Shown piece by piece: positions 28,664-48,486 of a DNA stretch of 64,000 nucleotides. The stretch is from positions 1-64,000 of the forward strand of contig JAHOYZ010000039.1 in NCBI GenBank assembly GCA_019038695.1. The letters run 5' to 3'. The notes beneath the pieces are model-generated. The model saw only the letters and a program-made list of their open reading frames with translations, did no database searches and had not been told where the DNA came from. This stretch comes from Candidatus Zixiibacteriota bacterium (lineage in GTDB: Bacteria > Zixibacteria > MSB-5A5 > GN15 > FEB-12). The position numbers and the translations under genes were made by a program. Each line of letters opens with the position of its first letter. The first letter of the stretch is position 1.

Positions 28664-31600
28664 TCAGAATCCCGCCACCATTTCGCCCTGCCCTATGATA
28701 CGGGCTGCCCTCGTATCGGCATGACGGCCGGAAATTGACAGATTAATCCGTAGCCTCGACTTGCCCCCATAGCGCACCCCCACCGACCAAACTGCTCCCT
28801 GGCGACCGGGACGATTGTCGGTCAGCAGAAATGACGGCATACCGGACAGGGCCGAAAGAGTCTGTCGATACAACTCCAGTGAGATACGGAGTTCACCATT
28901 GCCGACAAATCCAAGACGTGAAGATGTCAACAGCCGGTAAAGATCAGAACGTTCGCCGACAGCCGATGTTGCTCGGCGATAGGCAGTGCCCAACGTCAAT
29001 TCGTGAGCGCCCATGAGCTGTCGGATAGTGAGATCAATCGAGTATCCGTCCACTTCACCAGCCCCACTAAAATAGATATCTCGATCTGAGTCAAACAGTC
29101 CTACAGTCTCTTCGAAACGAGTACTACCGACAACCTGTCGGAAAGACAACGAACCGCGTCGATCGCGCCGTTCTCGTGGCGTATCCGCCACGCGACGTAT
29201 CTCCTGATCCTCACTCACCGATAGACTGACAGCATAGATATTCTTGATGGGAAACAGACGCAGATCGGTGCTATGATGACGATTGTAATAAAGGTACGGC
29301 TGGCTCTGGTCGGACACGAATGGCAACACCCACCAGACTGACCGCTGACCCGACGCCAGTAATTCCTCCCTGACACGTGAATCTAGTCGCAGGAGTACAA
29401 TCGACCAGTCCCGGGACAAATGGAACGTCTTCTCGCCGCGAGACACTTGGGCCTGAGTAGACAATATCTCCTCGATCCTTACGAAATCACCATTAGGATC
29501 GGGGCGATACTCTTCCTCTTCAAAGATGTACTGCCCCTCCCCCGATTCTACCCGTAGATAGTTTATTCCGCGAGCATGTCGTGATTCCTCGGATAGCAGA
29601 TATGAGCTGCCCACTCTAAATCGTCCGGGTGAATCATTGTAGTCAAGGTTGAGTCTCCCCAGGTAGCTTTCGTCATGGGACTGAGGAGAACGTCGCCATT
29701 GATGGAACAGTGTCGTATTATAGCTCAGTTTGCCGATCCGGCGACGTGACTCAACACTAACGTGAGTGCGACGCAATAGCTCATTCCAGTCACCTCTTAA
29801 GGTGTCCTCAATATATCGCTGAACTTCCAGACGCTCGGTCGGTCGGTCAAGAGAAAAACTCAGGCGATCATACCGTGTCCCCCGATCTTCTCCCTTGTAA
29901 TCATGTCTCCGATCGTCATGCTCATAGTCAGTGGAGAACGTCCACCCAAGAGGAACTTTCCACGCCACAACGCAGCCATACGAGTCTGCCCTGCCAGTAA
30001 TCGGGCGTGTGTCAACGGCACTCGTATCAGCGGTACTTGTACCAACGGCACTAGTGCCATCGATACGGATCATACGCCATTTCAGACGGCCGGTAACATT
30101 GCGATGAGCCATAATTTCAACATCGCCACCACCACGCCATGATGACGGACCGTGCTGATAATCCAACCGCGCCAGATTCGGAGAAACGGCTACATGCGAC
30201 GATGGCGAGAGCCGTCCTTCTATCGATTGATAGCTCTCGTCTGAGGTCATAACAAAACTGTCGGGAAGAAAGAAATCCCTGGCAAAATCGGCCTTATCCA
30301 GCCGGTGCGGGGACCTATATCGCGGTTCTCTGAACCTGGTTCTGGCAGTGACATATTGGGTGTTGTCAGGAGGACCCCAGTCTTTCCGAAGCGAGGCTAC
30401 ATACAACGCCCCATTATTGTCATCATCATCGAGGTCGGAGAAAAGATTCTTATCGGATTGACTTTGCCGCCATTCGGCTGTAAGAGTTCCCAGAGCACCG
30501 CTTCTGATTCCGAGGCTAGTCTGAAAATACTCGTTTCGCTCAGGCAATGGGAGAGTTCTGACTGGCAGATAGTCACCTTTTCCCTCACCCGCATACTGGT
30601 AAATCGCGTTGCCTACATAGCGATACTCGCCCTTGCTAACTCCGACAAAACTGAAGGTCACTCTGTAATCCCCGGTATCCCCCACGATATGTTGGTAGAT
30701 TGTGTCAGGTAGACTATCAGGTAGAATGATGTAGTTGCCCATACTATCGGGAAACACCCCTGATTCACGGGCCGCATCGGAATTGTCTCCCACCGCTTCT
30801 AATAGCGCCCGACCGGCCTCCGACAATTCCCCCTGGAGTGGCTGGTGACTGTCATCACCATCATGTGTCCAGGCCATGTCGAAGATAACGGTGGAATCTC
30901 CAAGAGCTACCCCTCCCCCGGCAGTGAACAACTCCCCACGGTAATCCGAGGACTGCGGTTCATAATCAATCTCGATACGGCTGCGGCTGTCGATGGAGTG
31001 ATTGACGCCAAACGTTATCTGACCAGCCGGGTAGTCAACAATGTAATCCTTGTGTGTACCTCTTTCCAGAAGCTGACCATCGAGCCACACCTGTTCCGAA
31101 CCCGGGACAACCGGCACCGCGGCCGGGTCGATCTGATAGGGACCTTGAAGCTGATCCAGACTGTGTAGCCGTATGGTCTGGAAACGTCCTCGCGGTCGAG
31201 CCGCCGACATGTAGGCACTCTGATGAAAGTCGCGATAAGCAAAGGTCACTCCCGAAAGACGCCGGTCACGTCTGGTAAACGGCATTTGAGTCATCGGATC
31301 AAAACGATTGCTCACCATGAGATCACCAACTCGACCGGTGAACCGTCGTGAGTTTACCTCCAGATGGATTCGGTCGAGTTCCTTCAGAGTACTGTTGGCT
31401 GTTCCGTAGATGGGGTCATAACCTCGATCCGAGACCGCCCCGGTTACATCTACTCCCGAAGCCAACTGACCGGAGATAGTGAGATCAAGACCCTGGCTGA
31501 AGCTTGAACCTCCTCTCGAACGAGTCATAAATCGAAACGACTTGGTTCCTGACAGACTCAGATCCGAACCACGCGATGTTAAGTTTCTTTTACCTGAATG

Positions 31601-31984
31601 AACCACTCCCCTCGTTTCAGGGAGCGCGTATTGTCCTATCGGTGGGAGTGACCGTCCATAGGTAGTGGACAACCACGAAGGCAAAAGGGTATAGCACAGA
31701 CGAAGCGTGTCGCCATGTGCGACCGTGATACGCGACAGATCAAATCGCATATATTTGTTGTCATAATTGTATTCTGTCCCTCGCCTGAGTAAACTATCGC
31801 CAACATAGAGCGAGTCGGACAAATCGAATATGCCTCTGGGAGCAACCGAGTAAACTGCCGGCAGACTGTCCCCGGCGATTTCGACACAGGTGCCAGAGAC
31901 GGCGGCATAAGGCGCAAGAAGGATGCAGAAAAATATGATGGTGATCAAGAACGACGGAGATTTCCATGGATAGTGATCGCCCAT
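28664..31984 (-). CDS. Large outer-membrane barrel-like protein of unknown function
   Basis: This 1106-residue protein has an N-terminal signal peptide and a mostly beta-rich sequence with alternating polar and aromatic strands, as in large barrels. The motif PGSEQVWLDGQLLERG followed by DYIVDYPAGQITF (about 295-330) resembles repeats I associate with SprA-type and related surface proteins of FCB bacteria. A weaker copy lies at about 45-75 (VGDSLLRRGTEYNYD). True SprA proteins are about twice this length, so a translocon role is only a hypothesis. It lies between the NHL lipoprotein and Omp85 genes with almost no spacing. Confidence 0.55.
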   Translation of the reverse strand: MGDHYPWKSPSFLITIIFFCILLAPYAAVSGTCVEIAGDSLPAVYSVAPRGIFDLSDSLYVGDSLLRRGTEYNYDNKYMRFDLSRITVAHGDTLRLCYTLLPSWLSTTYGRSLPPIGQYALPETRGVVHSGKRNLTSRGSDLSLSGTKSFRFMTRSRGGSSFSQGLDLTISGQLASGVDVTGAVSDRGYDPIYGTANSTLKELDRIHLEVNSRRFTGRVGDLMVSNRFDPMTQMPFTRRDRRLSGVTFAYRDFHQSAYMSAARPRGRFQTIRLHSLDQLQGPYQIDPAAVPVVPGSEQVWLDGQLLERGTHKDYIVDYPAGQITFGVNHSIDSRSRIEIDYEPQSSDYRGELFTAGGGVALGDSTVIFDMAWTHDGDDSHQPLQGELSEAGRALLEAVGDNSDAARESGVFPDSMGNYIILPDSLPDTIYQHIVGDTGDYRVTFSFVGVSKGEYRYVGNAIYQYAGEGKGDYLPVRTLPLPERNEYFQTSLGIRSGALGTLTAEWRQSQSDKNLFSDLDDDDNNGALYVASLRKDWGPPDNTQYVTARTRFREPRYRSPHRLDKADFARDFFLPDSFVMTSDESYQSIEGRLSPSSHVAVSPNLARLDYQHGPSSWRGGGDVEIMAHRNVTGRLKWRMIRIDGTSAVGTSTADTSAVDTRPITGRADSYGCVVAWKVPLGWTFSTDYEHDDRRHDYKGEDRGTRYDRLSFSLDRPTERLEVQRYIEDTLRGDWNELLRRTHVSVESRRRIGKLSYNTTLFHQWRRSPQSHDESYLGRLNLDYNDSPGRFRVGSSYLLSEESRHARGINYLRVESGEGQYIFEEEEYRPDPNGDFVRIEEILSTQAQVSRGEKTFHLSRDWSIVLLRLDSRVREELLASGQRSVWWVLPFVSDQSQPYLYYNRHHSTDLRLFPIKNIYAVSLSVSEDQEIRRVADTPRERRDRRGSLSFRQVVGSTRFEETVGLFDSDRDIYFSGAGEVDGYSIDLTIRQLMGAHELTLGTAYRRATSAVGERSDLYRLLTSSRLGFVGNGELRISLELYRQTLSALSGMPSFLLTDNRPGRQGAVWSVGVRYGGKSRLRINLSISGRHADTRAARIIGQGEMVAGF

Positions 31985-32964: not shown

Positions 32965-33765
32965 TCAAAAACCCGGGTACACAGTAATCGCGACCTGGTT
33001 GCGCTCAGCCAGAGGATCAACGCTCAACTGCACCGGTTTGCCAGCTACTGACAGGAAGAATCCGTCATCAGTCAGTCCCCCCCCACGGGCATCGCGAACA
33101 GCATCGACGACTGCCAGAACACGGTCAAAGAGACCAACCAACATGACCCACCTGGCTCGTCGATAGGCAGTTCGGCTGGATTCACGGAGCTCACGGAAAA
33201 CAGCCCTGTCCTCGGTTGACTGCCAAGACCAGTGATGACTTGCATCATCGGGAAAGTACTCCGAGCCAGTCTCCAGCAGACGTCCGATATCATTGTACCG
33301 ATCAATATCGCGGTATTTCTCCAGCCAGACAAAGAAATCATCATCCTTACCATCCAGGTTTGCGCCTGCTTTTGCTTCGGCATGACGTATCATGTCATCC
33401 TTCTTCCATGCGCCGTAGGTACGCAGGGAAAAATAGGAAACCCAGGTCACTATCTCCGCCGCAAAGAAAACGCGAGCCTTGGTCTTCCGACCGTTGTAAT
33501 ATTGCCCCCACCCCGGAACCAGCAACGAATACAGTCCGGCTCTGAGCTTCGATTGACCACCAAACTTCTGGCCGGACAAAGTAGCCTTGGCCTCTACATT
33601 GCTGGAGTCGAAGGCATTGAGTGCGACTGCTTTCAGTCCGAAACCCGAACCGGCAATGGTCTGTGACATCTGGGTTTGAATAGGCGTCTTGCTCAATTCA
33701 AGCCCGTGTCCGACGACCACCATTACAATCAGCAGGGAAACAGTCAGGGACAATATGCGCTTCAT
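32965..33765 (-). CDS. DUF5683-like membrane protein, copy 2
   Basis: This 266-residue protein has a signal peptide and the characteristic VPGWGQYYNGRKTKARVFF segment (about 85-103) with adjacent hydrophobic stretches. It is a paralogue of the next gene upstream. DUF5683 proteins are common in Bacteroidetes and other FCB bacteria, and their function is not known. It lies 10 bases after its paralogue. Confidence 0.72.
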   Translation of the reverse strand: MKRILSLTVSLLIVMVVVGHGLELSKTPIQTQMSQTIAGSGFGLKAVALNAFDSSNVEAKATLSGQKFGGQSKLRAGLYSLLVPGWGQYYNGRKTKARVFFAAEIVTWVSYFSLRTYGAWKKDDMIRHAEAKAGANLDGKDDDFFVWLEKYRDIDRYNDIGRLLETGSEYFPDDASHHWSWQSTEDRAVFRELRESSRTAYRRARWVMLVGLFDRVLAVVDAVRDARGGGLTDDGFFLSVAGKPVQLSVDPLAERNQVAITVYPGF

Positions 33766-33775
33766 TTGCTCTACC

Positions 33776-34681
33776 TTAGAATTTATAAGTGAACGTCACA
33801 AAAGGCGTATCCCGTCTGGCATGATACGACTTTAGCGACGCCTTTATCTTGACCCGAGCCAATGTCGATCCACTCTGGGTTTCGATCCGGCTATTGTGCT
33901 TTTTGGCTGAAATCAAACCCTCAAATGCACTTACCAGACGATTGGCTATGGAGACAAAGATCATGCGTCGGGCTCGCTTGTAACGACCGTCAGTATCCTT
34001 CCGCATCTGCTCATATTCCAGTCGGTGGGATGTGGACGGAATGTTCTCGTCTGTATTAACATGCGGCGGCGGGGCGATTTCACTGTAGTCATACAGATAC
34101 TGCCCCTCGAGATTAGCATCATCCCATCCCCAGGCAAACTGATCGTACTTACCGGTCATCTCGTAGTATTGCTGAGTGCGAGTATCCGGCAGATGATGCG
34201 ACAGTTCGCGGGCGGTGAGGGAATCGTCATCGTCCTTCCCATAGGCCCACAGAAGATAGGTTTCGTAATCCTCCTGATTCCAGTGATCACGATTGAACTG
34301 TTCGAACTCGGCGGTCATATCATCGGCCTGTCCATGCCACTTGCTGTAAAAAATCCATGAGGTTACTTCAGCTCCAAGAAATCCGACTGCCTTGAACCGA
34401 CTGCCATTGTATAACTGACCCATTCCTGGAACCGCGAGCGAGAGTAAAAATGCCTTGGCTGGCGACTTGCTTCGGAAATTATTCGGGCGAGGTATCTGGT
34501 CTGATGATGGATCGACGACGAGCGGCTCGTCAGTGTTTAGGGCCAGGGCAACGTCATACCGAATCTTGTGTCCTTCTAGAGCGAAAGCGGATGTAGTCGA
34601 TTGTACGGCGGCTGCGTTTCCGGCAACCATCAATAGGCCGACAGTTATAGCGAAGACACAAATGGTGTTGGATCGGATCAT
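33776..34681 (-). CDS. DUF5683-like membrane protein, copy 1
   Basis: This 301-residue protein has a signal peptide (cleavage near NAAAVQ) and the segment VPGMGQLYNGSRFKAVGFL (about 83-101), followed by TSWIFYSKW. It shares the layout of the neighbouring copy but carries a longer, aromatic and acidic central region. The two may form a heteromeric unit; that is inferred only from adjacency. Confidence 0.72.
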   Translation of the reverse strand: MIRSNTICVFAITVGLLMVAGNAAAVQSTTSAFALEGHKIRYDVALALNTDEPLVVDPSSDQIPRPNNFRSKSPAKAFLLSLAVPGMGQLYNGSRFKAVGFLGAEVTSWIFYSKWHGQADDMTAEFEQFNRDHWNQEDYETYLLWAYGKDDDDSLTARELSHHLPDTRTQQYYEMTGKYDQFAWGWDDANLEGQYLYDYSEIAPPPHVNTDENIPSTSHRLEYEQMRKDTDGRYKRARRMIFVSIANRLVSAFEGLISAKKHNSRIETQSGSTLARVKIKASLKSYHARRDTPFVTFTYKF

Positions 34682-34701: not shown

Positions 34702-37700
34702 CTATCGAATTATCGCAATATCTGTGAAGGCTGTTTGTTCCGAACCACTAAAATCAATCTTGATAAAGCAACGATATACACCCGGGCTGACATCGTCACA
34801 ATTCCAGACGACTTCATTATCCAGGCCACCGGAAGTTGGTCCGCTTAGGGCGTCAATTTCTATCCCTGACAAATCGTAGATGGTAAGCCTTACTCGATTG
34901 GCTTCCTTTCCCAGGAAGTATCGAATGGTCGTGTGCCCGTCAACGACCGGGTTAGGATAGTTGTAGAATCGGTCGTCATGCCAATTTTGACTAAACTGTA
35001 CGGGCGAGATCAATCTGGTCGAATCAAAGGTCAGCGAGTTGGTCGGATCGGCACCACCCATAGGCCAGTAGTTACGGGTCGAATCGGCGTCTACCTGCCA
35101 CATGTAGAACCATCCATCACCACCAAGGTACCCCAACCATCCGCCGGTCGAATCATTAAGCGTGATCGGCGACCCGGCTGCGAGTTCCCCGGCCGAAAGT
35201 GGGAATCCGTAGGCTAGATTCTGACCATAGGCATATATATTTCCCGCAGCGGTAGCTGCTACAATCTCGGACCGTCCACCACGCTCAAGGTCGGATACTA
35301 TCGGCGGCGCAGACACAAAATTGTCGGCAAGAAGTCCGTCGTCAATCTCAATAGGGAAACCGGTCTTAGCCGTGAGTTCGTGATTGAAAGCATATATAGC
35401 GTTGGGACCACCACAGATGATGTCGGGATAGCCATCATCATCAATATCCGCTGCGATCGGATTTACGGTCACCGTTGCTCCCGTTTCTTGATAGCGTAGC
35501 AAAGACAGATCCGGCGGGGATTGGTTCTGGTCAACACTAATCAGTACCATCTCCCCATTGGCTGACACGCCTACAATCTCGATGACTCCATCACGATCGA
35601 CATCGACGGCAATAGGACCATAGCGAAAATGGCCGTTCAGTGAAATCGAATCAACGTGATCATCATCCATAACATAAAAGGTAGTGACATCCTCATCCCC
35701 GGCCATCAGAATCATCGCTTCTCCGGCTCGGCAGATACCGTGATATTCGTCATTAACAAATGTCCCAATCAGCACCAAAGATCCGGAAACCAGTCCGGTC
35801 TTATGATAAACATTTCCAAGGCTGGTCAGTCCATATAAATCGTGGCCAAAGGTAATGGCAATAGGAGTGCCTGACGTGATGAATTCGGATCGTAAGTCCG
35901 CCTGCCCATCGTGGTCATCATCAGTCGCTTTATAAATAAGTATGCGCCCGTCGGACTCACCATAGGGAATACCAACCGCGACGAGTTTTTCGGTAAGCGC
36001 CTTCTCGCCAAAGTCACCGGTCACCGGACCGGACCAGATTACCTGGTTGGGAGCCAACTCGACAAACAGCGGCACCGGATGAGGACGCCCGGTATGTATA
36101 CTGGCCAGGGCTGTGTCATAGAAAGTGTCTGCCTCGGGTGTGTAGAACTTCCTGATATAGCGCTCCCCCTCGGTCGTGAAGACTGAAATGAGGTTCTGCG
36201 AAGCGACAATCAACTCATCAGTCCCATCACGATTGAGGTCATCGGCTATTACGTTAAGGTGATAGGCCGGTGAGCCAGCGCGTATAGGGAAACCGGGGGC
36301 AAGCCTGTCGGTCTCCAAATCAAACCGCATGATGTTGTCGTCAATGTAGATGTTATTAAGACCTACCGTATCGATATCACGACTAATGCCGGAGACATAG
36401 ATATGGGTGTTATTGCCTGAATTATCAATTGCCGGTGGATTGGTATTAGGTGTAAAAGAAGTGTTGCGGTCATCGCGATACATATCCTCAGCGCGTCCGA
36501 AACCACTGCGGTAGTACCCTCCGAGATGAACCTGGCCATCACCCTCGATCAAACGAATGAATCGACGCTCCGAGTCCCACTGGAGGTCGTTGTCGTCAAA
36601 ATTGTTCATTCCGTCACCGTCATAATCCAGACCGGCAACAGCCTCGTCAACATGGTAAATAAGCATCCCAGAGCCGGGCATCAGCTGGTCATACTCCCGC
36701 GAGTATGATCCGTACCCGACAAGATTGCCTTCATTGTCTCGAATAATCTCCACAGGACCCTGGATAACACCGGTGGCCGAGTCCGCCCGAACTCCGGTTT
36801 CCTTGCCATCGATTTCAATAACCCGGTTCTCCAATAAGTAGTATTCCTTTTCGGTGATCGGAATGCGGGCAATCTTGATGCTGTCGGAGATCATTGCAGC
36901 CGCTGCCAGCGTTATGTCGGTACCCTGACGGAAGTCATGGACATCGACAAAGCCGAGATGCGCCCGCGACCAGGCTGTTGGGAATAACGGCATGGCTCCA
37001 AACACACGACCCGCATCGAACCCAAAATCGATCCCGGTTCCAAAGCCATTGTTATCCATGAGGGAAAAATCACCAAGTTGGGTCATAAAGTTGTTCGTAC
37101 TGTAGATGTCCACCAATCCCAATTGATGACCAAATTCGTGGGCCAGAACCGCGTTGAGAGCAGTGGCACGATTATCCTGGCAGGCCGTCTCCGGCATCAT
37201 CAGCGCAGTTCGCACGAACGTAGCACCGTTGTCAACCCACACCGAGTCACCGAAACTGATGAACCCTGTAAACAGGTCATTGCACGTTTCCGGAAAGCCT
37301 ATATCATTCTGCCGGTCGGAACCGGCATGAAAGAGAAAGATCGACTCGTACCGAGCGAAATCTATCGCGGGTGTTTCGGCATCGGCTGTTTCAATGCAAT
37401 CTATAAAGTACAGCTCGAGTCCGTAGACCACAGAGTCATAGCCACACTTCCCGTAGTGGCTCATAGGGTGTGGTAAAGTGTAGGCAGCATCGCTCTCTGG
37501 TGGGAATATCTCCCAGTGAAGATCGATCTTGCCTTCAGAAACTGTCTCCCAATAGCGACTGAGCGCCTGCATATGAGCATCGAAGTAGGCTGCGTTGTGC
37601 GGTGGGGGATCTATCCAATGACCAATGGTATCATAGTAGGCGGCTGAATCCTCAGGCGTAGCCAGGGGATTGCTTAAGTCGATTACACCTCGACCGGTAG

Positions 37701-38013
37701 TATTGGGATCGTCGGTGTCTTCCCGCTGAAAATCAAACCGCAGCACCAGGACTTCGATAGTCCTGTCGGCCATGGCATCAAGCGCCTGGCTGGGCAGGGA
37801 CCAGGATCTGTCTCGTTTTACCCCGAGGTCGATCGGATCCTTTACCTCTGGCGTGAGACAGCGTTGACGTACATGATTATCGCCGGGGTCAGTGGTGACG
37901 GCCTGACGACTCAAAATAGGCAAAGCTTTGTCACCGGCGGCGACGTTGGTGGTGGCGACCAGCAAGGCCGCCACCACTACTATCTGGCGAAGATCAAACA
38001 ATCCTATGTTCAA
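34702..38013 (-). CDS. Secreted M6-type metalloprotease with C-terminal sorting-like domain
   Basis: This 1103-residue secreted protein has a signal peptide, then a metalloprotease domain with zinc site HEFGHQLGLVD (about 291-301), typical of the M6/immune-inhibitor-A-like family. FG-GAP/VCBS-like repeats rich in D-x-D-x-D loops follow (about 560-980). The C-terminal 80 residues (YPNPVVDGHTTIRYFL, then SPGVYRC) match FlgD-like or type IX sorting domains. It lies directly after the PorU and PorV-like genes, so it is the natural candidate cargo of that apparatus. Confidence 0.85.
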   Translation of the reverse strand: MNIGLFDLRQIVVVAALLVATTNVAAGDKALPILSRQAVTTDPGDNHVRQRCLTPEVKDPIDLGVKRDRSWSLPSQALDAMADRTIEVLVLRFDFQREDTDDPNTTGRGVIDLSNPLATPEDSAAYYDTIGHWIDPPPHNAAYFDAHMQALSRYWETVSEGKIDLHWEIFPPESDAAYTLPHPMSHYGKCGYDSVVYGLELYFIDCIETADAETPAIDFARYESIFLFHAGSDRQNDIGFPETCNDLFTGFISFGDSVWVDNGATFVRTALMMPETACQDNRATALNAVLAHEFGHQLGLVDIYSTNNFMTQLGDFSLMDNNGFGTGIDFGFDAGRVFGAMPLFPTAWSRAHLGFVDVHDFRQGTDITLAAAAMISDSIKIARIPITEKEYYLLENRVIEIDGKETGVRADSATGVIQGPVEIIRDNEGNLVGYGSYSREYDQLMPGSGMLIYHVDEAVAGLDYDGDGMNNFDDNDLQWDSERRFIRLIEGDGQVHLGGYYRSGFGRAEDMYRDDRNTSFTPNTNPPAIDNSGNNTHIYVSGISRDIDTVGLNNIYIDDNIMRFDLETDRLAPGFPIRAGSPAYHLNVIADDLNRDGTDELIVASQNLISVFTTEGERYIRKFYTPEADTFYDTALASIHTGRPHPVPLFVELAPNQVIWSGPVTGDFGEKALTEKLVAVGIPYGESDGRILIYKATDDDHDGQADLRSEFITSGTPIAITFGHDLYGLTSLGNVYHKTGLVSGSLVLIGTFVNDEYHGICRAGEAMILMAGDEDVTTFYVMDDDHVDSISLNGHFRYGPIAVDVDRDGVIEIVGVSANGEMVLISVDQNQSPPDLSLLRYQETGATVTVNPIAADIDDDGYPDIICGGPNAIYAFNHELTAKTGFPIEIDDGLLADNFVSAPPIVSDLERGGRSEIVAATAAGNIYAYGQNLAYGFPLSAGELAAGSPITLNDSTGGWLGYLGGDGWFYMWQVDADSTRNYWPMGGADPTNSLTFDSTRLISPVQFSQNWHDDRFYNYPNPVVDGHTTIRYFLGKEANRVRLTIYDLSGIEIDALSGPTSGGLDNEVVWNCDDVSPGVYRCFIKIDFSGSEQTAFTDIAIIR

Positions 38014-38040: not shown

Positions 38041-41013
38041 TTATGGTCTCACAGAAAGTGACATACGCAAGGTGTTCGCCAATATTGACTCGTTATTGCT
38101 GGGAATATAAGAGAAATCAAATCCGAAGCGGTCCATCAGCGTAAGACCGACACCAAGAGTGAGAATCTTAATTTTCCCGTCTTCATCATGCTTGTATCCA
38201 GCTCTGAGAGCAATCAGGTCAGCATAAACAAACTCTGCTCCAGTGTTAATGATTGTCTCTTTGATCTCTTCATTAAAACTGCCAATGGAAACTAGTTGTT
38301 TATTCAGTTCGCCGGTGATCAACAGACGGTTGTAGTCCGATCGCAGGAGCTTGTATGCGAATCCAATTGCGAGGTTACGCGGCAATGGATCACTCTGTGC
38401 ATCCTGACTGTACTGGATCTCCGGTCCGATGTTGGTGATGCTCATGCCAAGATTCAACCGTGGTGTCATGTGGTAGAGCAATCCCAGATCGAGCGCGACT
38501 CCGGTAGCGGTGCCATCACCAAAACCTCCCGATTCCTCTCCTGAAAGCTCGCCCACTTCAGATAGGTGGGAATACAACACTTTGGCTGAGATACCACCTT
38601 TGAGCGATTGGGTCAGAGAAGCGCCGTAGGATAGCCCGACGGCAAACTCGTACGCCTCCCCCATACCAGCATCGTGACCCTGCTCGTCGGTATACGGCAT
38701 GGACCCATATGTCAGGTATGTAAAATTGAAACCGACTGTACCCCAACCACGTAGATGATGTACACCTGAAAAGAATTCATAATAAATGTCGTCGGCAAGA
38801 TCAAGTTCGGGCAACCAGTTAACATGCATCAGGGAATACTCCGAACGTGCATTGGCTTTGGCAACAACTCTATCTTCGCTGGCCATCCAGAGTTCGTCAC
38901 CAATCATTATCACGTTGATGGCATTCGACCGGTCAAGCCCCATCCGATTCACGCTCATCACTCGCTTTTTCTCTTTGTCAAAGAATCTGAGACCATTGGC
39001 AGTCGCAAGGTAAACATACTTGCCACTCCCCGTGATCTTGTTGATTCGGGATGCCAGAGCGTTGCGATATACTTTGATTGTATCACCTATTTGGAGAGTA
39101 CCGTCGTCCAAATCATTTATCGCGATGAGAGCTTCGCGGTATAGGTTCGCATCATCGGGATCTATTTCTTCACCCCACCTTAGACCGATCAAGTTACTAT
39201 CGAGTGTTTCTCCCTCGGCAACAACGTGTTCACCATAACCGAGAATGCGCGACGAATCACCAGAGAGTAACACTAATCCGTAATCTGTACCCAGCCATGT
39301 TCTGTCACCAGCAGAGTAAATGCTGGTCGCATCCCCTCTAATCCGGGCCACATAGGGAACCAAAATAACATCGCCAGCTCTCAGAGCATCCATATCAACC
39401 GGTCGGGCAGGCATCGCCGGAACCTCGGAGGTAGTGACTGAATCCATCTGCTCAAGGGTTTCATCTATCACCAGAGCAGTATCTTCAACAGAAGTCTCCG
39501 GCAACACATCAACATCCTCAGATGCTTCACCAACACTGTCTGACGGAACAACCTCAGTTACTTCACCAGCACTATCTGACGGAACAACCTCAGTTACTTC
39601 ACCAGCACTATCTGACGGAACAACCTCAATTACTCCACCAACACTGTCTGACAGAACAACCTCGGTGGCTTCAGTGACACTATCGGACTGTACAACCTCC
39701 GTAGCTTTTGACGGATCAACCAACACATCTTCCAGACCGGCTTCCGGTGATGGCTCGTCTGGCCGCTGGTTAATGTCAAGCATCTTTGCGATGAATTCAC
39801 TTTTTTCAGCTTCCAGGCCATAGATTGCGAACTTGTCGGCAATTGACTCTGGGGTGTCATCCAACACCACCGTATAGGCAAAGCTGTTTGACCAGGTATC
39901 GCCGTTAAATGAGTATAAGTCGTTATCGATCACGACCCATTCATGTTGGCTGCTGAATCCGGGACCAACAGCACTAACCCGACCGCCTGGTAAACTCTCA
40001 GAACCAGTGACAGGTATCACCTTGGCTCCAGCAAAAGAGACCAGACCCTTGCTAGTGCCAACGTATATCAAACCTGGTGAGGTATACAGCGCAGTAATCT
40101 CCGAAGAAGGCAGACCATCGAGTTCGGTCATAGTCCGCCAGGTTTTTCCATTGTAGAAATACAAACCGTTTGTCGTTCCTACCAGAAGGGACTTCTCGCC
40201 TGAAACAATACAGGTGAGTTCGCCCTCAAACAGAGCTGCATAGGGAATCTTCAGTTCTTCGGGAATGAATCTTGATCTGGCATTTTCAATCGCTATGTTT
40301 ATGCGATCACACTCAACCTCAGACAAGACCGAATCTTTCATGCCGTCATTGTAATTCTTACGGGCAGTCTCGAACCTATCCCAGTTGATACGACACTCGT
40401 CGTAGGCCGCCGTCAGGGTATCAAAATCATCAGTAATTGCTGAGAGGCGGGGATAATCCTCGGGAATGCTTGCAATAATGTTATCCCTAAGCTGCAGTAG
40501 CTCCTGTTTGCTGTAAGGGCTGTTGGCCTCAGCCACGACAGCCACTCGGGCTGCGAGCCGCTCTTCGTCCTTTTCGTTGAAATAACGAGTGACCTTTTGA
40601 GATACAGTCTGATCGGTACGGGTATTGAATATTTCCTCTGTGTACCAATTGCGATAATCATACCGTACAAGTCCTTGAGTGGATATGGCCCATATTTCAT
40701 AGGATTGGTAGTCCGAGCCAGTCCCTTTCCTCAGGGCCACCATGCTTCGCAACGGCCGAAGATGATTGGGAACTCGGGAGTCCTTCCATGAATCCGAAAG
40801 CGGGTAGGCTCCGAGACCAGCCGGGTTCCAGTATGTTGTGGTGGCATCATCAGCAACCGCCACGAATGACTCACCCATTGCAGCCGCTCGGGCTCCAGGT
40901 GCAATGCGAAGGAAAAGAGCTGAAGCGCTCGAGACCTGTGCCTGGCCGCTGGTGGCCAGAGCGGTGACGATCAAACATGTGAGGACAAGAGTAACAACGT
41001 GTCTCGTGAGCAT
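38041..41013 (-). CDS. porV: PorV-like outer-membrane protein with a giant internal insertion
   Basis: This 990-residue protein begins (signal peptide 1-26, then 27-75) and ends (about 730-990) like PorV/PorQ barrels: LRIAPGARAAAMGESFVAV with YWNPAGL, and later NWLPELDLADDIYYEFF. Between them lie about 650 extra residues: propeller-like strands (GLYFYNGKTW, VGTSKGLVSF), a helical part, a tandem repeat (about 436-496) and two LysM-like motifs. PorV in type IX systems shuttles cargo to PorU. The gene follows porU by 19 bases, as in Bacteroidetes. Typical PorV proteins have about 400 residues. Confidence 0.75.
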   Translation of the reverse strand: MLTRHVVTLVLTCLIVTALATSGQAQVSSASALFLRIAPGARAAAMGESFVAVADDATTTYWNPAGLGAYPLSDSWKDSRVPNHLRPLRSMVALRKGTGSDYQSYEIWAISTQGLVRYDYRNWYTEEIFNTRTDQTVSQKVTRYFNEKDEERLAARVAVVAEANSPYSKQELLQLRDNIIASIPEDYPRLSAITDDFDTLTAAYDECRINWDRFETARKNYNDGMKDSVLSEVECDRINIAIENARSRFIPEELKIPYAALFEGELTCIVSGEKSLLVGTTNGLYFYNGKTWRTMTELDGLPSSEITALYTSPGLIYVGTSKGLVSFAGAKVIPVTGSESLPGGRVSAVGPGFSSQHEWVVIDNDLYSFNGDTWSNSFAYTVVLDDTPESIADKFAIYGLEAEKSEFIAKMLDINQRPDEPSPEAGLEDVLVDPSKATEVVQSDSVTEATEVVLSDSVGGVIEVVPSDSAGEVTEVVPSDSAGEVTEVVPSDSVGEASEDVDVLPETSVEDTALVIDETLEQMDSVTTSEVPAMPARPVDMDALRAGDVILVPYVARIRGDATSIYSAGDRTWLGTDYGLVLLSGDSSRILGYGEHVVAEGETLDSNLIGLRWGEEIDPDDANLYREALIAINDLDDGTLQIGDTIKVYRNALASRINKITGSGKYVYLATANGLRFFDKEKKRVMSVNRMGLDRSNAINVIMIGDELWMASEDRVVAKANARSEYSLMHVNWLPELDLADDIYYEFFSGVHHLRGWGTVGFNFTYLTYGSMPYTDEQGHDAGMGEAYEFAVGLSYGASLTQSLKGGISAKVLYSHLSEVGELSGEESGGFGDGTATGVALDLGLLYHMTPRLNLGMSITNIGPEIQYSQDAQSDPLPRNLAIGFAYKLLRSDYNRLLITGELNKQLVSIGSFNEEIKETIINTGAEFVYADLIALRAGYKHDEDGKIKILTLGVGLTLMDRFGFDFSYIPSNNESILANTLRMSLSVRP
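39526..39705 (-). repeat. Five tandem 36-bp units within the PorV-like gene
   Basis: Five units of 36 bp start at 39526, 39562, 39598, 39634 and 39670. The middle units are nearly identical and the outer ones diverged. Each encodes twelve residues of the type VVPSDSAGEVTE, an acidic, proline and serine-rich spacer. The length keeps the frame, so copy number can vary without breaking the protein. Confidence 0.9.
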
Positions 41014-41032: not shown

Positions 41033-44000
41033 TCAGTTCACAACTACTATTTTTCCAAGTGCTTCGACTACTTCTCCCCCATTCGAAGGGACAGCAATCG
41101 CTTTATAGATATAGACACCGGTTGCGACCCGGTCGCCGGCGGCATCAAGTCCATACCATATTATATCGTCAAAATAGCCCGCTTCTACGGGGTACCGTTC
41201 AAAGGTTTTGATCTTTCGACCTGAGAGCGTAAATATCGCCAGAGACAGCCGTTTCATCGGTTGTGTCAAACGGCAGGAAAATCGGGTCATGTCATTCATG
41301 GGATTGGGAAAATTGAGAAGGTCGGCAATAGCCGCTTCTGAGGAGACCATAATCTCGGCCACAAACTCGGTACTCGACGAGTTGTTGGCATTGTCCCAGG
41401 CCTTGACCTTGAAAGTGTGTCGACCGGGCTCCAGTTCGTCAAGCGGATACTCCAGACTGCCAGTGGAGAAATCACCCTGATCGTGACTAAAACTGCTGGT
41501 CAAATCGATCTGGTTCTCCGATTGTCCATCGATGGTAAGAGTTATTCCGTGCCCCAGCGCCCCAGACAAATTCACGCCACTCGGATCGGTCAGGACAATT
41601 TCCAGTCGATCACTGCGAAGAACCACGTCACCGCTTACAAACTGATTGCTGCCCTCCAGACCGTATTCGATCTCCGGTCCGGTAGAATCTGTCGAGGCAG
41701 CCGCGTTGTCTGCGATGCGCAACGAATCAGCCAGACCGATAGCATCGGTGTTGCCCAATTGAGCATAGAGCACAATGCGGCCGCCATGACCACCATAGCC
41801 AACATCAAGCGGCGTTACGAACTCAAAATCGAAATCTCCAGCGGTTATTGCAGTCGTACCTCGGTACAGAGTAGGACCGGATACAAAGTAATCAATATTA
41901 CGGTATGTCTTGGGACGATCCGAGTCGTAGATATTGATCGACAATTGGCCATCGGCCATTAATGTTTGCCCGTCGTGATTTATAACCCTTCCTGCTACCC
42001 GGGCGCGGTCAAGCGCGATTAAACTATCGGGACAGGTGGTGATTTCAATGTCCAGACGAGGTTGCCCCAGACTCAGACACGGATCCCCGAAAAATACATA
42101 AATGCGGTCATTTGTAACCGGTATCGGTGAATCGGGATTGGCATATTGGCGACGTAACTTTGCCAGATACATAGCCTCGGCTATGGTCAACGAATCATCT
42201 TCGAAAAGAGCGCTGAACACAGTCTGATTAAATACGGCATTGTCACTCGAATAGACAATGCGAGCCGCGCTGATCACTCCAATAGCCCCCCCTGCGGGGT
42301 GGACCAACAAATCTTCGGCCATCGCATCATTAAGTGGTTCATCGAAAAAACCGATGGCACATGAGGCCACAAATACCAAGGGCAAACGATCATAATTGCT
42401 CAGCTGGGGTAAATCCTCCAGACGGGTAAAAACATGCTCATGAGCCCAGAGTTCGGGATTGCCATGACCAACGTAGTTGATAATTAATGAACCATTATTG
42501 AATGCCGCCACGATATCAGGGTTGGCGGTTGGTTTGTACCGTCCCACAAAGGGGTAGTCCCATATATATATCTTATTACGCAGAAAACTCCGAGGCGTGT
42601 ATCCCCGCGACAGCTGTTCAGTCTGGTTGGCATGGAAAGTCTCATCGTGGCCGGTATCGGTGTGTTCGTCATCGGCAACAAACGTTATCCGATTACGCCA
42701 GAGACCAAGGTTGGACGGTGACTCATAGTGTTTGCTCTTGGCCACGATAGTATTGATTTCTTCCACCGTTCGTACCGGCCAACGAGCTACCAACATGTCA
42801 AAACCACGATCTCCGGTCATATAAGTGGTATCACTATCAAGCAGCCCATAGGTGCCAAAATACACATAGGCATCGTCGGAAGTAGACTCCTCCGACGGCA
42901 ATATCCACGACGGCACACGGTTGACAAATCCGGTACCAAAGTGATCGAGGTAGTCGTAGGTGCCATCACCAACAAGCAATACAGATGATGGCGCTGGAGT
43001 TGGATAGCTTTCGTAGGCATACTTGAGAAAATCCCGGATAGCCGCTGGGTCAAACAATCCCCAGGAGAAGTTGTCATAAATATCTTCTACCGCCACCACC
43101 GAGATTGATCGTTCACCGTTCTGCCGATATTCGACATACTCATCAAGAGCACCAATTAGATCTCTGGAAGATATGATAATGAGATCCACCTGCCTATCAG
43201 TCGCATACAGATCAGTCGGCCAGGATCGTTCAATGGACAGCGGTGCAAGCGGACCCGAACGACGAGCCAGGTAGAACCGATTACTCAGTAAGGGATCGAT
43301 CATTGCTGAAAATGAAACACTGCCGCCAGAATGCTCGACTCCTGTCAGCAAAGTGGGGTGGTGTGGATCGGCCAGATTGAGAATCATCAACGGAGCATTA
43401 AAGTTATCAACTACATCCATTCGCGCCCGCCCCGCAAATGGCTCCAATGTGATATCCAGGACGTTTCCTTCGGGCACCAGCAAACTTATGTATTCGATAT
43501 TGAGATAGTTGAAAAACGGATCCGCCTCCGTGCTACCATGTAGATCAATGCGAATCTCGTTCAACCCATCATGCAAAGATGAAACCCCAAACCGACAATT
43601 GAACTGATTACACGTATCAACGGCTGGAACGCCATTCACCCACAAGTCCATATAACCGGGATTGTAAGTTCGACCATCGGTCTTGATCCGTGCCCGCGCA
43701 CCCTCGACAGCACCCGGAGTCGTCACGAACAACTCCAGCAAGGTGGAGTCCGTCCAATACCACGTATAATAATCAGACAGTCGACCGTTCTTTAGCTTTC
43801 GAAGTATGTTGTCTTGCTCACTATGCCGATAGCGTCGGAAAGTAGTGACTAATGTATCAGTCGGCAACTCGGGTGAGGCTCCGACCTCTGACATGCGTAC
43901 CGGAGTGTCGTCGGATATATTCAACCAGTAGACGTTGGCATTTTCATAGACATTGTTGACGAAACGTGGCACATAAGCAACCTGGTAGAGCCAGCGATCC

Positions 44001-44836
44001 ACTGCTTCGCCGAAGAAGAAAACAGTGTCATCGTGACCAAATAGACCGTCACCACCGTCCGCCACAATGATCGAAATTTCTTCAAGCGTCGGACGATCTG
44101 TATTATTGTTGATGGGCAGAATCAATCCACTACCATTTAGAAGATGAATGTGGTCGCTCGACAGGTTGCCCAGGTTCACCCCGGCCTCCTCCAGCTGTGT
44201 TCCGGTAAGGCCATAAAGACCAGTCTGGTTGACCTCAATCCGGTACCATTCTTCCGCCCCTGAAAAGGGTCCGACACTCGCTGTAGGTTTGGCCATCACA
44301 CGAACTGGAACCTGCCACTGACGGAACTGCTGATAATTTGCTACCGCCGCTTTGAAAATGCGGTCAAACAAAGGATCGTTTGCAGGCGCTCCTACAATCG
44401 AGCGACCGCCATCGAAAGAAAGCTGTACTTCCACCTCGTGGAACATCATGGAGCCGGTCACAGGATAAATATTTATCGATACTAACCTGCGGTCTCGGAT
44501 TGTGCGCGGAGGTAAAACCTCAACCAAAGGATGAGAAGTTGAAGACATCTCCACAGCCATTTTCGTGGCATCCATGCTCCCGAGCGATCTGCCCTCTGCA
44601 AATCTCAGGTGAGGCTGAGCTAAATGTGGAAGACCAACTTGTACTGAGTAGAAGTGCGATTGCAGAGAATCGGTTTCCGCATGAGAAAGGAGGTCGTCGT
44701 CATCTAAAGTAAGAACAAAATGGAACAGTGTGTCGGAAGAGGATACTACCTGGAGGTCGGCTCCATTGACCGACAACACGCCCAATAGAATTACAAGGCA
44801 AAGCAAGATGAATGATTTACACAGTCTACACGTCAT
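41033..44836 (-). CDS. porU: PorU-like C25 (gingipain-family) peptidase, putative sortase
   Basis: This 1267-residue protein has a signal peptide, a beta-rich N-terminal region, a C25 peptidase domain (about 555-900) and a C-terminal FlgD/sorting-like domain (about 1175-1267: FPNPMNDMTRFSC, ATGVYIY). The catalytic pair is intact: His in YVGHGNPELW (about 790) and Cys in FVASCAIGFF (about 824), 34 residues apart as in gingipains. PorU removes C-terminal signals in type IX secretion and attaches cargo to lipopolysaccharide. Adjacency to a PorV-like gene supports this over a plain gingipain. It is first in a nine-gene apparent operon. Confidence 0.82.
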   Translation of the reverse strand: MTCRLCKSFILLCLVILLGVLSVNGADLQVVSSSDTLFHFVLTLDDDDLLSHAETDSLQSHFYSVQVGLPHLAQPHLRFAEGRSLGSMDATKMAVEMSSTSHPLVEVLPPRTIRDRRLVSINIYPVTGSMMFHEVEVQLSFDGGRSIVGAPANDPLFDRIFKAAVANYQQFRQWQVPVRVMAKPTASVGPFSGAEEWYRIEVNQTGLYGLTGTQLEEAGVNLGNLSSDHIHLLNGSGLILPINNNTDRPTLEEISIIVADGGDGLFGHDDTVFFFGEAVDRWLYQVAYVPRFVNNVYENANVYWLNISDDTPVRMSEVGASPELPTDTLVTTFRRYRHSEQDNILRKLKNGRLSDYYTWYWTDSTLLELFVTTPGAVEGARARIKTDGRTYNPGYMDLWVNGVPAVDTCNQFNCRFGVSSLHDGLNEIRIDLHGSTEADPFFNYLNIEYISLLVPEGNVLDITLEPFAGRARMDVVDNFNAPLMILNLADPHHPTLLTGVEHSGGSVSFSAMIDPLLSNRFYLARRSGPLAPLSIERSWPTDLYATDRQVDLIIISSRDLIGALDEYVEYRQNGERSISVVAVEDIYDNFSWGLFDPAAIRDFLKYAYESYPTPAPSSVLLVGDGTYDYLDHFGTGFVNRVPSWILPSEESTSDDAYVYFGTYGLLDSDTTYMTGDRGFDMLVARWPVRTVEEINTIVAKSKHYESPSNLGLWRNRITFVADDEHTDTGHDETFHANQTEQLSRGYTPRSFLRNKIYIWDYPFVGRYKPTANPDIVAAFNNGSLIINYVGHGNPELWAHEHVFTRLEDLPQLSNYDRLPLVFVASCAIGFFDEPLNDAMAEDLLVHPAGGAIGVISAARIVYSSDNAVFNQTVFSALFEDDSLTIAEAMYLAKLRRQYANPDSPIPVTNDRIYVFFGDPCLSLGQPRLDIEITTCPDSLIALDRARVAGRVINHDGQTLMADGQLSINIYDSDRPKTYRNIDYFVSGPTLYRGTTAITAGDFDFEFVTPLDVGYGGHGGRIVLYAQLGNTDAIGLADSLRIADNAAASTDSTGPEIEYGLEGSNQFVSGDVVLRSDRLEIVLTDPSGVNLSGALGHGITLTIDGQSENQIDLTSSFSHDQGDFSTGSLEYPLDELEPGRHTFKVKAWDNANNSSSTEFVAEIMVSSEAAIADLLNFPNPMNDMTRFSCRLTQPMKRLSLAIFTLSGRKIKTFERYPVEAGYFDDIIWYGLDAAGDRVATGVYIYKAIAVPSNGGEVVEALGKIVVVN

Positions 44837-45216: not shown

Positions 45217-45816
45217 CTACTCCAGTTCCCGAAATAAGTTCTGACTGACAGATTCCATCTCGATCTGCAGCGACCGTAACCAATCGCCATAATCTTCCAC
45301 CGTACCGTTGGGATACATAACACCACTGTATACACTGTAGTACTGGTCGATCACCCCTTGAATAGCATTCATCTGCCGCTCATCATAATACGCCTGCTGG
45401 CGTATCAACTCCCAAGTGTATTCGATGTTATCTTCCCAAGCTTTCAGAATGGGACGCTCACGACCAATCCAGGAGTCGATGACCTCGTGTATCTCGTTGT
45501 CAGGGATAGCCTCTCCCCGTCCGGCATTGCCCTCAAGCCATCTTTCTTCGAGCCTCCATCCATAGTCCAGCAATGATCCCGAGGTAGAATCGACGTAGTT
45601 CCTGAGCAAATTGGCTACTTCTCCGGGCGCGGTGTTATCAACCCGTCGTGCCCAATTGGATCGAATACCTCGCGCTCTGGTCTCGGAGGAAGCCACTGCT
45701 TCCTCGTTGGTCTGGCCGGTTTCAATCCTAACTCCACAACCAACCATAACGAGCCCTATGACCAGCAAGCTAATTAGAAGCACACCGATGGGAACGATTC
45801 GTAGCGATCTCGTCAT
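45217..45816 (-). CDS. Lipoprotein of unknown function
   Basis: This 199-residue protein has a lipobox MVGC with the cysteine at residue 27. The mature part is helical and rich in W, Y, E and R (e.g. LDYGWRLEERWLEG). No family is recognised. Its ATG overlaps the stop of the tryptophanase-like gene (ATGA), so the two are translated together, which is an odd pairing of enzyme and lipoprotein. Confidence 0.65.
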   Translation of the reverse strand: MTRSLRIVPIGVLLISLLVIGLVMVGCGVRIETGQTNEEAVASSETRARGIRSNWARRVDNTAPGEVANLLRNYVDSTSGSLLDYGWRLEERWLEGNAGRGEAIPDNEIHEVIDSWIGRERPILKAWEDNIEYTWELIRQQAYYDERQMNAIQGVIDQYYSVYSGVMYPNGTVEDYGDWLRSLQIEMESVSQNLFRELE

Positions 45817-47213
45817 GTGACCACTTTTTCATGGGCCAAAGACTCCAGATCGCAAGTAAAGTGCCGCAGGAAAGCTGTCTGACGGACAATCCGATACCCG
45901 GCCAACGAGTCACGTCGGTTGGCGATGCCGGCAGCGATATCAGCTACATAGTCATAGTGTGTGTTGGAATAGACCCTTCTGGGCATAGCCATCCGCACCA
46001 ATTCGCGTGGTGCCATAAACTCCTCACCCGTGTTAGGATCTTTGCCGCCAAACATGAGCGAACCTATCTCGACAACTCGCACTCCCCCCTCACGATAGAA
46101 CTCGACTGTAAGAGATTGGCCGGGAAACTGGTTCGGCCTGATATGAGGAAGCAAAGCCCCGGCATCAATAAACACGGCATGGCCGCCGGTAGGTTCGACA
46201 ATCGGCATACCTGCCCGTTTGATCTGTTCACCGAAATAGGCCACCTGGCTGATGCGGAAATGGAGGTAGTCGAAATCCTGTACCTCGCGCAGACCAATAG
46301 ATAGAACTTCGAGATCACGACCAGCCAGTCCGCCATAAGTCGGAAAACCTTCAATGATAATCATCAGTTGGGTTAGTTGTTCATACAAAGCTCCATCATT
46401 GAGCGCAATGAATCCCCCGATATTGGCCATACCGTCCTTCTTGGCTGACATCATTACGCCATCACAGCATTCGAACATCTCCCGAGCAATAGTCTCGATC
46501 GGTTTTTCCCCCCAGCCGGATTCGTCCCGTTTAATGAAATAGCAGTTTTCAGCAAACCGTGCACAGTCAAAGAAGAACGGGATATTGTGCGCTCGACAGA
46601 TTTCCGAGGTCGCCCGGATATTGGCCATTGATACCGGTTGGCCGCCGATGGAGTTGTTGGTTACAGTCATTATGACCATGGCTACCGACGCCTGCCCGTG
46701 TTCGACGATGAACTCCTGCAGACGTTTGGTGTCCATATTACCTTTGAACGGTATCACTTCGTCGGTGGCAGCCTCCGGACATGGAAGATCAATGGGGATG
46801 CCGCCCTTATGCAGCGTATTGCCACGAGTAGTATCAAAGTGGGTATTGTTCAGCACGTATTTTCCTTTTTTCAGGATCGTACTAAACATCAGGTTTTCTG
46901 CCGACCTTCCTTGATGGCAGGGGATTACGTACTTCTTGCGAAATATATCCTGCACCGTGCGCTCAAAATTACGGAACGAGGACGCACCGGCGTAGGTTTC
47001 ATCGCCAAGCATCAGCGCCGCCCACTGACGCGCCGACATAGCCGTAGTGCCGGAGTCGGTGAGAAGGTCTATGAAAATATCCGGTCCGTCGATCTTGAAG
47101 ATATTGTATCGCGCCTTTGTAATCCTCTGCTCCCGTTCGTGAGCGGAGAGGCGCTTGATTGGTTCCACCGACTTGACGCGGTGAGGTTCGACTGGTTGAT
47201 GTCTTTTGGGCAT
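45813..47213 (-). CDS. tnaA: Tryptophanase-like beta-eliminating lyase
   Basis: This 466-residue PLP enzyme of the tryptophanase/tyrosine phenol-lyase family has the PLP lysine in MSAKKDGMANIGG (about residue 258) and the aspartate in FFFDCARFAEN. The C-terminal GGVRVVEIGS follows the tryptophanase pattern rather than the MERG of tyrosine phenol-lyase. It would cleave L-tryptophan to indole, pyruvate and ammonia. No TnaB permease or TnaC-like leader was seen. Tyrosine or another substrate cannot be excluded. Confidence 0.85.
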   Translation of the reverse strand: MPKRHQPVEPHRVKSVEPIKRLSAHEREQRITKARYNIFKIDGPDIFIDLLTDSGTTAMSARQWAALMLGDETYAGASSFRNFERTVQDIFRKKYVIPCHQGRSAENLMFSTILKKGKYVLNNTHFDTTRGNTLHKGGIPIDLPCPEAATDEVIPFKGNMDTKRLQEFIVEHGQASVAMVIMTVTNNSIGGQPVSMANIRATSEICRAHNIPFFFDCARFAENCYFIKRDESGWGEKPIETIAREMFECCDGVMMSAKKDGMANIGGFIALNDGALYEQLTQLMIIIEGFPTYGGLAGRDLEVLSIGLREVQDFDYLHFRISQVAYFGEQIKRAGMPIVEPTGGHAVFIDAGALLPHIRPNQFPGQSLTVEFYREGGVRVVEIGSLMFGGKDPNTGEEFMAPRELVRMAMPRRVYSNTHYDYVADIAAGIANRRDSLAGYRIVRQTAFLRHFTCDLESLAHEKVVT

Positions 47214-47336: not shown

Positions 47337-48356
47337 TTAGACCTCTCGAAGTTTAAACTCGGTCACCACATGACCGGTCAGAATATTGCGATAATTGCGG
47401 ATTTCCGGACGCTCATGTCTGGCCAGCAGCGGATAGTCTTCGATATTCTCAATGATACCCAACTGCTTCAGAACCGAAACACACACAGCCCCAAGCGCGC
47501 GCTGGTTGCCATCGTGAATCTTTACCACTATTCCCAGCGGTGGATCAGATAACCCGATAGCCTCGACCGACTCCGCACCCACTTTGCAAATGAGCCGAGT
47601 CGGAAACGAACGAGCGAGATCAAGATCAAGACGTTTTTCACCCGACACCATTTCGGGATATGTTGTCATTGCCTGTCGAATCCTTGCGAGTATGTCGGCG
47701 CTAACCCCTGCATGGGCCTGACAATTAGCCAGCTTCTTGAATCCTAGAGCAAGATTATATGGCGGCAGAGGCCAATTCGGAGCACTGCAACCATCGGTCC
47801 CAACGGGCATCTTATTAGCCGGGTATTCGCAGAAATCGGACAAGGTCCCCTTTACCATCTGCTGAGTCTTGCTGTCGGGGTTGAGATATTCTTCTTTGGC
47901 ATCGCCCAGGAATTGGGCCAGAGCCAGAAAACCAGAGTGCTTGCCGGAGCAATTATGCCGGACCGGGTCCTTATCTTCACCAGCCATCGGGTATTTCTTA
48001 TCGATCTGCATTCCCAACGGCCAGTGACTGCCACAAAGAAGATTATCGGGGCCGGAGTCGGACAGATCAAGATTGGATGAGATCACCTGATGATGGTCGT
48101 TACTGCCGGTATGAGAACCACACATTACGGCCAGTTGACGTGGTGTGAAACCGTAGTTGTCGGCGGCACCGCTCACAAGCAACGGCATCAGTTGGAACGG
48201 CTTAATGGAGGAACGCGTCATAAACGGTTCATGGGGGTCGCCCACAAAATGAGTCAAACTCCCGTCACCATCAACTACGGCAATTACTCCGTAATGGATT
48301 GCCTCGACGGCCTCTCCCCGGTATACCCGGGCCAATATTTCGACACCTTTAGTCAT
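47337..48356 (-). CDS. L-asparaginase II family protein
   Basis: This 339-residue protein matches the Rhizobium-type asparaginase II family, unrelated to E. coli AnsB. Characteristic segments are SSIKPFQLMPLL (about 48-59), CGSHTG (about 79-84), HNCSGKHSG (about 135-143) and GTDGCSAP (about 188-195). It hydrolyses asparagine to aspartate and ammonia in the cytoplasm. The ATG at 48356 begins the usual family N-terminus, and a longer frame to 48398 is less likely. It is read toward the tryptophanase gene, 123 bases ahead of it. Confidence 0.88.
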   Translation of the reverse strand: MTKGVEILARVYRGEAVEAIHYGVIAVVDGDGSLTHFVGDPHEPFMTRSSIKPFQLMPLLVSGAADNYGFTPRQLAVMCGSHTGSNDHHQVISSNLDLSDSGPDNLLCGSHWPLGMQIDKKYPMAGEDKDPVRHNCSGKHSGFLALAQFLGDAKEEYLNPDSKTQQMVKGTLSDFCEYPANKMPVGTDGCSAPNWPLPPYNLALGFKKLANCQAHAGVSADILARIRQAMTTYPEMVSGEKRLDLDLARSFPTRLICKVGAESVEAIGLSDPPLGIVVKIHDGNQRALGAVCVSVLKQLGIIENIEDYPLLARHERPEIRNYRNILTGHVVTEFKLREV

Positions 48357-48486
48357 GCAATTACCAGCCAAGATAATCAAGGGGTCGAAAAAAGCCAAAC
48401 ATTTCCGTCAGTCAACGCGCAAAAGAGATCAGGACCGAAAGAATCCTGACCCTTGGAACCCATCCACCAGGTGGTTATTCGTTATT

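Follow-up and report, generated by a model that had tools for sequence, protein, structure and literature searches.

PorV is described in the literature as a freely diffusing shuttle of the type IX secretion system (T9SS); in P. gingivalis, PorV and its cargo are proposed to reach the PorU complex together by diffusion (PMC5562754). The PorV of F. johnsoniae (6h3i, 8gl6) comprises 402 aa and consists of a hatch and a 14-strand FadL-type barrel, which are joined by about six residues (64–69). Its loop 193–199 lies on the periplasmic face and is contacted by SkpA (PMC10994853).

Propellers are found in other T9SS proteins. PorE (PG1058) of P. gingivalis is a periplasmic protein that combines a propeller with an OmpA-type wall-binding domain; this domain was crystallised together with a fragment of peptidoglycan (PMC5053529, PMC7192894). 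It is a separate lipoprotein with TPR and CRD, its wall binder is not of the LysM type, and it has no barrel. PorZ (5m11) belongs to the T9SS attachment complex and has a seven-bladed propeller of the two-component-regulator type with velcro closure (PMC5121618). It carries two propellers and a CTD and is located at the surface. The sensor propellers BT4663 (4a2l) and BT3049 (3v9f) form the periplasmic part of membrane-bound kinases and have neither LysM arms nor a barrel.

The window analysed here is a whole stretch of 64,000 nucleotides of a Candidatus Zixiibacteriota genome. Positions 38041–41013 (minus strand) form a single uninterrupted ORF of 990 aa, a PorV-family gene split by an insert, with full-length homologues collected in alignment A1. 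The protein matched NF033709 (PorV/PorQ family, NCBIfam) with E 5.6e-72 and 243.1 bits against a curated cut-off of 90, and Pfam PorV with E 5.2e-19. The main NF033709 match covered residues 718–988 (profile 40–324 of 326), and the hatch was matched on its own by NF052325 (residues 9–67). With the PorV equivalog NF033710 it scored 179.4 bits, below the curated cut-off of 250, with the match broken up by the insert; this score was higher than that of the PorQ model (83.9). Judged by these profile scores, the protein is filed in the PorV/PorQ family as PorV-like and not as a confirmed PorV equivalog. Pfam detected PorV in every one of the 45 full-length homologues; 34 of them also have Reg_prop (best E 2.8e-16) and 27 have LysM (best E 1.2e-12). 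The architecture of hatch, propeller/LysM insert and barrel is well beyond chance.

An AlphaFold2 model was built from the 45 homologues (pLDDT 81, pTM 0.77). It begins with a predicted signal peptide, approximately residues 1–25 (40939–41013, minus strand; MLTRHVVTLVLTCLIVTALATSGQA), modelled as a helix (2–20) followed by low pLDDT. The hatch, or plug, comprises residues 26–75 (40789–40938, minus strand), carries the motif NPAGLG and has helices at 33–36, 41–45, 59–62 and 64–68. The outer-membrane barrel comprises residues 725–990 and the stop (38041–38841, minus strand), with strands from 725–732 to 981–988. The model thus has the hatch and the 14-strand FadL-type barrel that characterise the PorV/PorQ family. 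It matched F. johnsoniae PorV (8gl6_F) with Z 35.6, rmsd 3.8 Å and 30 % identity over 305 residues spanning 26–990, followed by 6h3i_F (Z 34.7) and FadL proteins (Z about 29). The structural alignment with F. johnsoniae PorV takes in the hatch, starting at residue 26, and the hatch also aligned to the NPA of 6h3i_F. Together with the two profile matches, this confirms a genuine PorV-family protein, as the first-pass annotation had proposed.

That annotation had read both ends of the protein as PorV and had expected them to close one barrel. The first part of this stood, as both ends align with F. johnsoniae PorV. The second did not: all 14 strands lie C-terminal to the insert, in the last 266 residues, which rules out a single barrel closed by N- and C-terminal parts, and only the signal peptide and the hatch precede the insert. 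An N-terminal part other than the first barrel strand had been named beforehand as grounds for giving up the reading, and formally this is what the model contains. This does not undo the finding: in PorV and FadL the hatch and the barrel form a single domain, and the model aligns over both.

In the model, the insert (residues 76–725; 38839–40788, minus strand) takes the place of the few residues that normally join the hatch to the first barrel strand, so that about 650 residues stand where F. johnsoniae PorV has about six. The ingredients listed from the sequence earlier were borne out here: propeller strands, a six-helix segment (137–244) and LysM-type beta-alpha-alpha-beta units. Folded alone, the insert reached pLDDT >90 over most of its length except the linker, and a pTM of 0.77.

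The propeller appears to be seven-bladed, the count being read from the strand list of the model and not from coordinates (residues 90–130, 266–295, 306–334, 346–381, 562–591, 657–687 and 698–720). Strand 75–80 (40774–40791, minus strand), beside the hatch, is likely the velcro (closing) strand of blade 7, as judged from the strand count. Blade 1 (40624–40746) has strands 90–95, 105–111, 114–118 and 126–130. Blades 2 to 4 (residues 266–376; 39886–40218), blade 5 (39241–39330) and blades 6 and 7 (residues 657–720; 38854–39045) follow on the same minus strand. A weak PorZ_N_b_propeller match, below the cut-off, covered residues 650–721. The fold searches returned propellers for the most part; 3v9f_A (BT3049, Z 22.3) and 4a2l_D (BT4663, Z 22.0) matched, and many other propellers were as good. 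By sequence, BT4663 (E 1.2e-32 overall) and BT3049 (E 3.1e-23) stood out with the A1 profile, and blades 2 to 4 lie within these matches. The Reg_prop threshold (PF07494) was passed in 34 of the 45 homologues, for example in L070 with 58 bits against 20.4; for the window protein, Reg_prop was not listed by Pfam at E 0.1. Membership in the PorZ family (NF052228) was rejected, with 17.1 bits against a curated cut-off of 260, one propeller and no CTD.

Two further observations concern the propeller. A 356-aa likely lipoprotein with propeller-like repeats is encoded on another contig of the same genome (L002:1339–2406, minus strand, contig C7). It is related to blades 2–3 of the insert (E 1.3e-11) and is possibly, by sequence, a relative of the propeller donor. 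Three homologues (L069, L073, L074) have two copies of blade 1 with its arm; their segment corresponding to 76–264 is 377–381 aa long instead of 189, and this may give an eight-bladed propeller.

Three beta-alpha-alpha-beta arms leave the propeller in the model, between blades 1/2, 4/5 and 5/6. Arm 1 (residues 131–264; 40222–40623, minus strand) is a LysM-like unit extended by four helices, with helices in 137–244 and a strand at 253–257. In the second phylum in which the insert was found, the same position holds a compact unit of 62–88 aa with a LysM-like pattern, and the four extra helices are seen in Zixiibacteriota. Arm 1 is called LysM-like on the basis of this pattern and position.

Arm 2 (residues 377–553; 39355–39885, minus strand) is modelled as a LysM unit (strand 377–381, helices 388–395 and 401–416, strand 549–553) split by a disordered linker with pLDDT <50 at residues 421–532. 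The linker is about 130 residues long in the window protein and 5 to 120 aa among homologues. It contains the peptide EVVPSDS, encoded by a 36-bp tandem repeat of 5.2 copies (39511–39699, minus strand; Tandem Repeats Finder). Where homologues have a short linker, this unit is a LysM, and their arm-2 profile matched the LysM structures of LytE (8i2e, E 1.4e-12) and of endopeptidase 4uz2 (E 1.1e-8).

Arm 3 (residues 593–649; 39067–39237, minus strand; strand 593–597, helices 604–613 and 619–633, strand 645–649) is LysM-like, with a Pfam LysM match at residues 627–648 (E 4e-4), and its profile matched LysM structures weakly. Arms 2 and 3 are homologous (hhalign 98.7 %, E 4e-16). The LysM cut-off (PF01476, 20.9 bits) was passed in homologues (48.0 bits in L072, 34.3 bits in L070), and the window protein scored just under it (20.7 bits). 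Unlike tandem terminal LysM repeats, the unit here is a loop between blades, of about 57 aa and with a longer middle. Arms were lost singly: arm 1 is absent in L082 and L083, and arm 3 in L015 and L027.

LysM folds usually bind N-acetylglucosamine-containing glycans, and the periplasm contains such a ligand. At the level of the family, LysM suggests a peptidoglycan-binding role, which would fit a periplasmic location of the insert, and we infer from this that the arms bind peptidoglycan. In some insert carriers, glycan binding may have been lost, because arm 1 is strongly modified in Zixiibacteriota, arm 3 matches LysM weakly and, in the window protein, the linker interrupts arm 2.

The side of the membrane was derived from the barrel. 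In the profile alignment, the periplasmic F. johnsoniae loop 193–199 falls at the turn between strands 6 and 7; in an antiparallel barrel, this places all even-to-odd turns, and with them the start of strand 1, in the periplasm. Turn lengths agree with this parity (even-to-odd turns of 3–4 residues, other turns of 4–18). Paralogues without an insert have the usual short passage from NPAGL to strand 1. Read from topology, strand parity and homology and not from the coordinates, the insert should hang in the periplasm.

The gene lies in a T9SS setting. Directly upstream is the gene of the sortase PorU (41033–44836, minus strand; NF033707 with E 3.4e-195 and 650.8 bits, where the cut-off is 420). 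Of 100 fetched loci, 97 have porU beside the split porV; the remaining three are truncated by the end of a contig. Directly downstream, an M6-like metalloprotease, a possible cargo, is encoded (34702–38013, minus strand), with an M6 domain, a weak T9SS sorting tail and a match to NF052323 (256 bits, below the cut-off of 600). Its adjacency to the split porV is conserved. The order porU – porV – M6 – two DUF5683 genes – NHL is widely conserved, and in the second-phylum locus L164 it is the same without the NHL gene. SprA was found in the same genome, as three matches within a single frame that total 506.9 bits, and above the cut-off in 59 of 61 relatives. The PorV equivalog takes type A cargo from SprA/Sov over to PorU, and the split protein may do the same; what the genome shows is the genetic linkage to PorU and the presence of SprA.

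Some neighbours deserve mention in their own right. The protease resembles the T9SS M6 family named 'inactivated' by NCBI, with a score below the cut-off, yet it has a HEFGH motif; its homologue in L164 has a Por_Secre_tail. The two adjoining DUF5683 genes (32965–33765 and 33776–34681, minus strand) are kept behind porU-porV-M6 in both phyla. A conserved neighbour of 1106 aa (28664–31984, minus strand) had no Pfam match and a short SprA match at 282–344 (E 9.4e-7). Upstream of porU, the genes of a beta-eliminating lyase (45813–47213) and of L-asparaginase II (47337–48398, both minus strand) are kept in many relatives.

The insert would most likely serve either as a tether between this PorV, with its link to PorU, and peptidoglycan, or as a docking domain towards the translocon on the periplasmic side. 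Computation gives the fold, its conservation and the gene order with PorU. For the specific reading, a T9SS PorV linked to PorU in which a propeller with three LysM-type arms, set into the turn between hatch and strand 1, tethers the barrel to the wall, we consider the chances evenly balanced. The LysM-type arms would bind peptidoglycan, and the propeller itself may in addition contact the translocon SprA from the periplasm. The barrel and the surface sortase PorU carried on it would then be held in place and would not drift in the outer membrane. A tether that relies on several weak contacts would be consistent with the single-arm losses and with the elastic linker. Against it stands the freely diffusing shuttle of the literature (PMC5562754). 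A tethered PorV would reverse that picture; a carrier that drifts freely elsewhere may be fastened to the cell wall in these bacteria. PorE, as described in published work, would be the closest functional parallel, homology not being implied; none of the OmpA, TPR and CRD families was listed by Pfam for the 990-aa protein.

The insert could also be a docking domain for the periplasmic mouth of SprA or for chaperones that helps to release PorV, with the LysM-type folds being structural only. This is possible but clearly less probable. In F. johnsoniae, a helix of SkpA makes contact with PorV at its periplasmic base, and an input of energy is proposed to drive PorV off SprA (PMC10994853). While SprA is conserved, GldL and GldN were undetected in 31 genomes and GldM in the own genome, so that another periplasmic link could be needed; these searches had no positive control, as the controls gave no match either, and absence is not claimed. 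Moreover, most members keep LysM-type arms, of which pure docking needs none.

A PorZ-like module fused to PorV, that is, a surface propeller binding the lipopolysaccharide used by PorU, would suit the fact that PorZ acts jointly with PorU and PorV (PMC5562754). The insert did match PorZ models weakly (PF21544 E 5.7e-4, NF052228 E 0.0015), as well as 5m11 by PDB profile (E 0.0014) and by Foldseek (E 1.9e-5). By strand parity, however, the insertion point is periplasmic, which makes such a fusion unlikely. Sensor propellers matched better than PorZ (4a2l, E 1.2e-32), the genome has a PorZ-like protein in its own right, 742 aa long and equipped with a sorting tail, and PorZ has two propellers and no LysM. 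We regard this reading as very improbable.

The first-pass annotation had called the insert sensor-like. A domain that reports the cell-wall or secretion state, comparable to the propellers that hybrid two-component systems have in the periplasm, would agree with the Reg_prop repeats and with BT4663-type sensor domains as the closest propeller sequences. The same propeller family occurs in non-sensor proteins such as PorZ, though, and no kinase or regulator part was found in the protein or recognised among the conserved neighbours scanned. Apart from the shared propeller family, the sensor label found no support, and we give this reading as little weight as the PorZ fusion.

An assembly or gene-fusion error, which had been named as a possible refutation, is practically out of the question and is refuted by conservation: the same architecture occurs in >100 genomes of two phyla (126 of 132 Zixiibacteriota and 15 of 17 second-phylum genomes) in open frames of about 780–1060 aa without stops, and no evidence favouring such an error was found.

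This conservation was seen at several levels. Of 61 relatives searched at the protein level, 59 had the split PorV, in frames of mostly 800–980 aa where the contig was long enough. Query residues 1–399, which cover the hatch and the start of the insert, matched in 129 of 132 Zixiibacteriota genomes at E 1e-8, and in 126 at E 2e-19 or better; the whole architecture was inspected in part of these matches. The three weakest matches (1e-9 to 1e-10) may be ordinary paralogues. Named loci matched were almost all Candidatus Zixiibacteriota. Sampling for the insert covered this phylum and one second phylum (including L164), in which 15 of 17 genomes had hatch and insert in frames of 810–860 aa, and in the remaining two the gene runs off the contig.

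The earlier remark that no PorV with such an insertion was known still holds: none was present among solved PorV structures, and the literature search found no paper describing a PorV with such a propeller/LysM insert. Nor were papers found for Zixibacteria or Zixiibacteriota in combination with T9SS or PorV. This is a new PorV variant, conserved in two phyla, with a propeller/LysM module that would lie in the periplasm and probably face the wall. A phylum-wide PorV with a large domain of wall-binding type, likely periplasmic and encoded behind the sortase, offers a handle on whether the sortase complex is anchored. The split PorV also offers a way into the workings of type IX secretion beyond Bacteroidota, a field on which almost no literature was found.

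The same genome encodes four PorV/PorQ paralogues of 314–338 aa that matched NF033709 over its full length (167–223 bits). In contrast to the split PorV, they have no insert and some lie beside cargo-like genes; by family scores they are closer to PorQ, and the split protein is closer to PorV. If the split PorV is tethered, these small barrels would be mobile shuttles for individual cargoes. Extending the tether to a wall-anchored hub, in which PorU sits on a LysM-fixed barrel, insert-free barrels bring the cargo and the T9SS may lack the PorL/PorM motor and the PorK/PorN ring, is a tentative step that we think unlikely to hold in full.

At four places in this genome (L199:3950–7696, L200:675–4835, L201:1812–5401 and L203:1804–7301), a PorV-family gene lies directly behind a gene with a T9SS-like sorting C terminus. 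The sorting-domain matches were weak and below the cut-offs. The arrangement looks as if cargo genes were each paired with their own PorV-family shuttle. One of these genes (L203:1804–3627, minus strand, contig C6) encodes a PorV-family barrel of 608 aa (NF033709, 116.5 bits). The TPR region at its C terminus would likewise be periplasmic.
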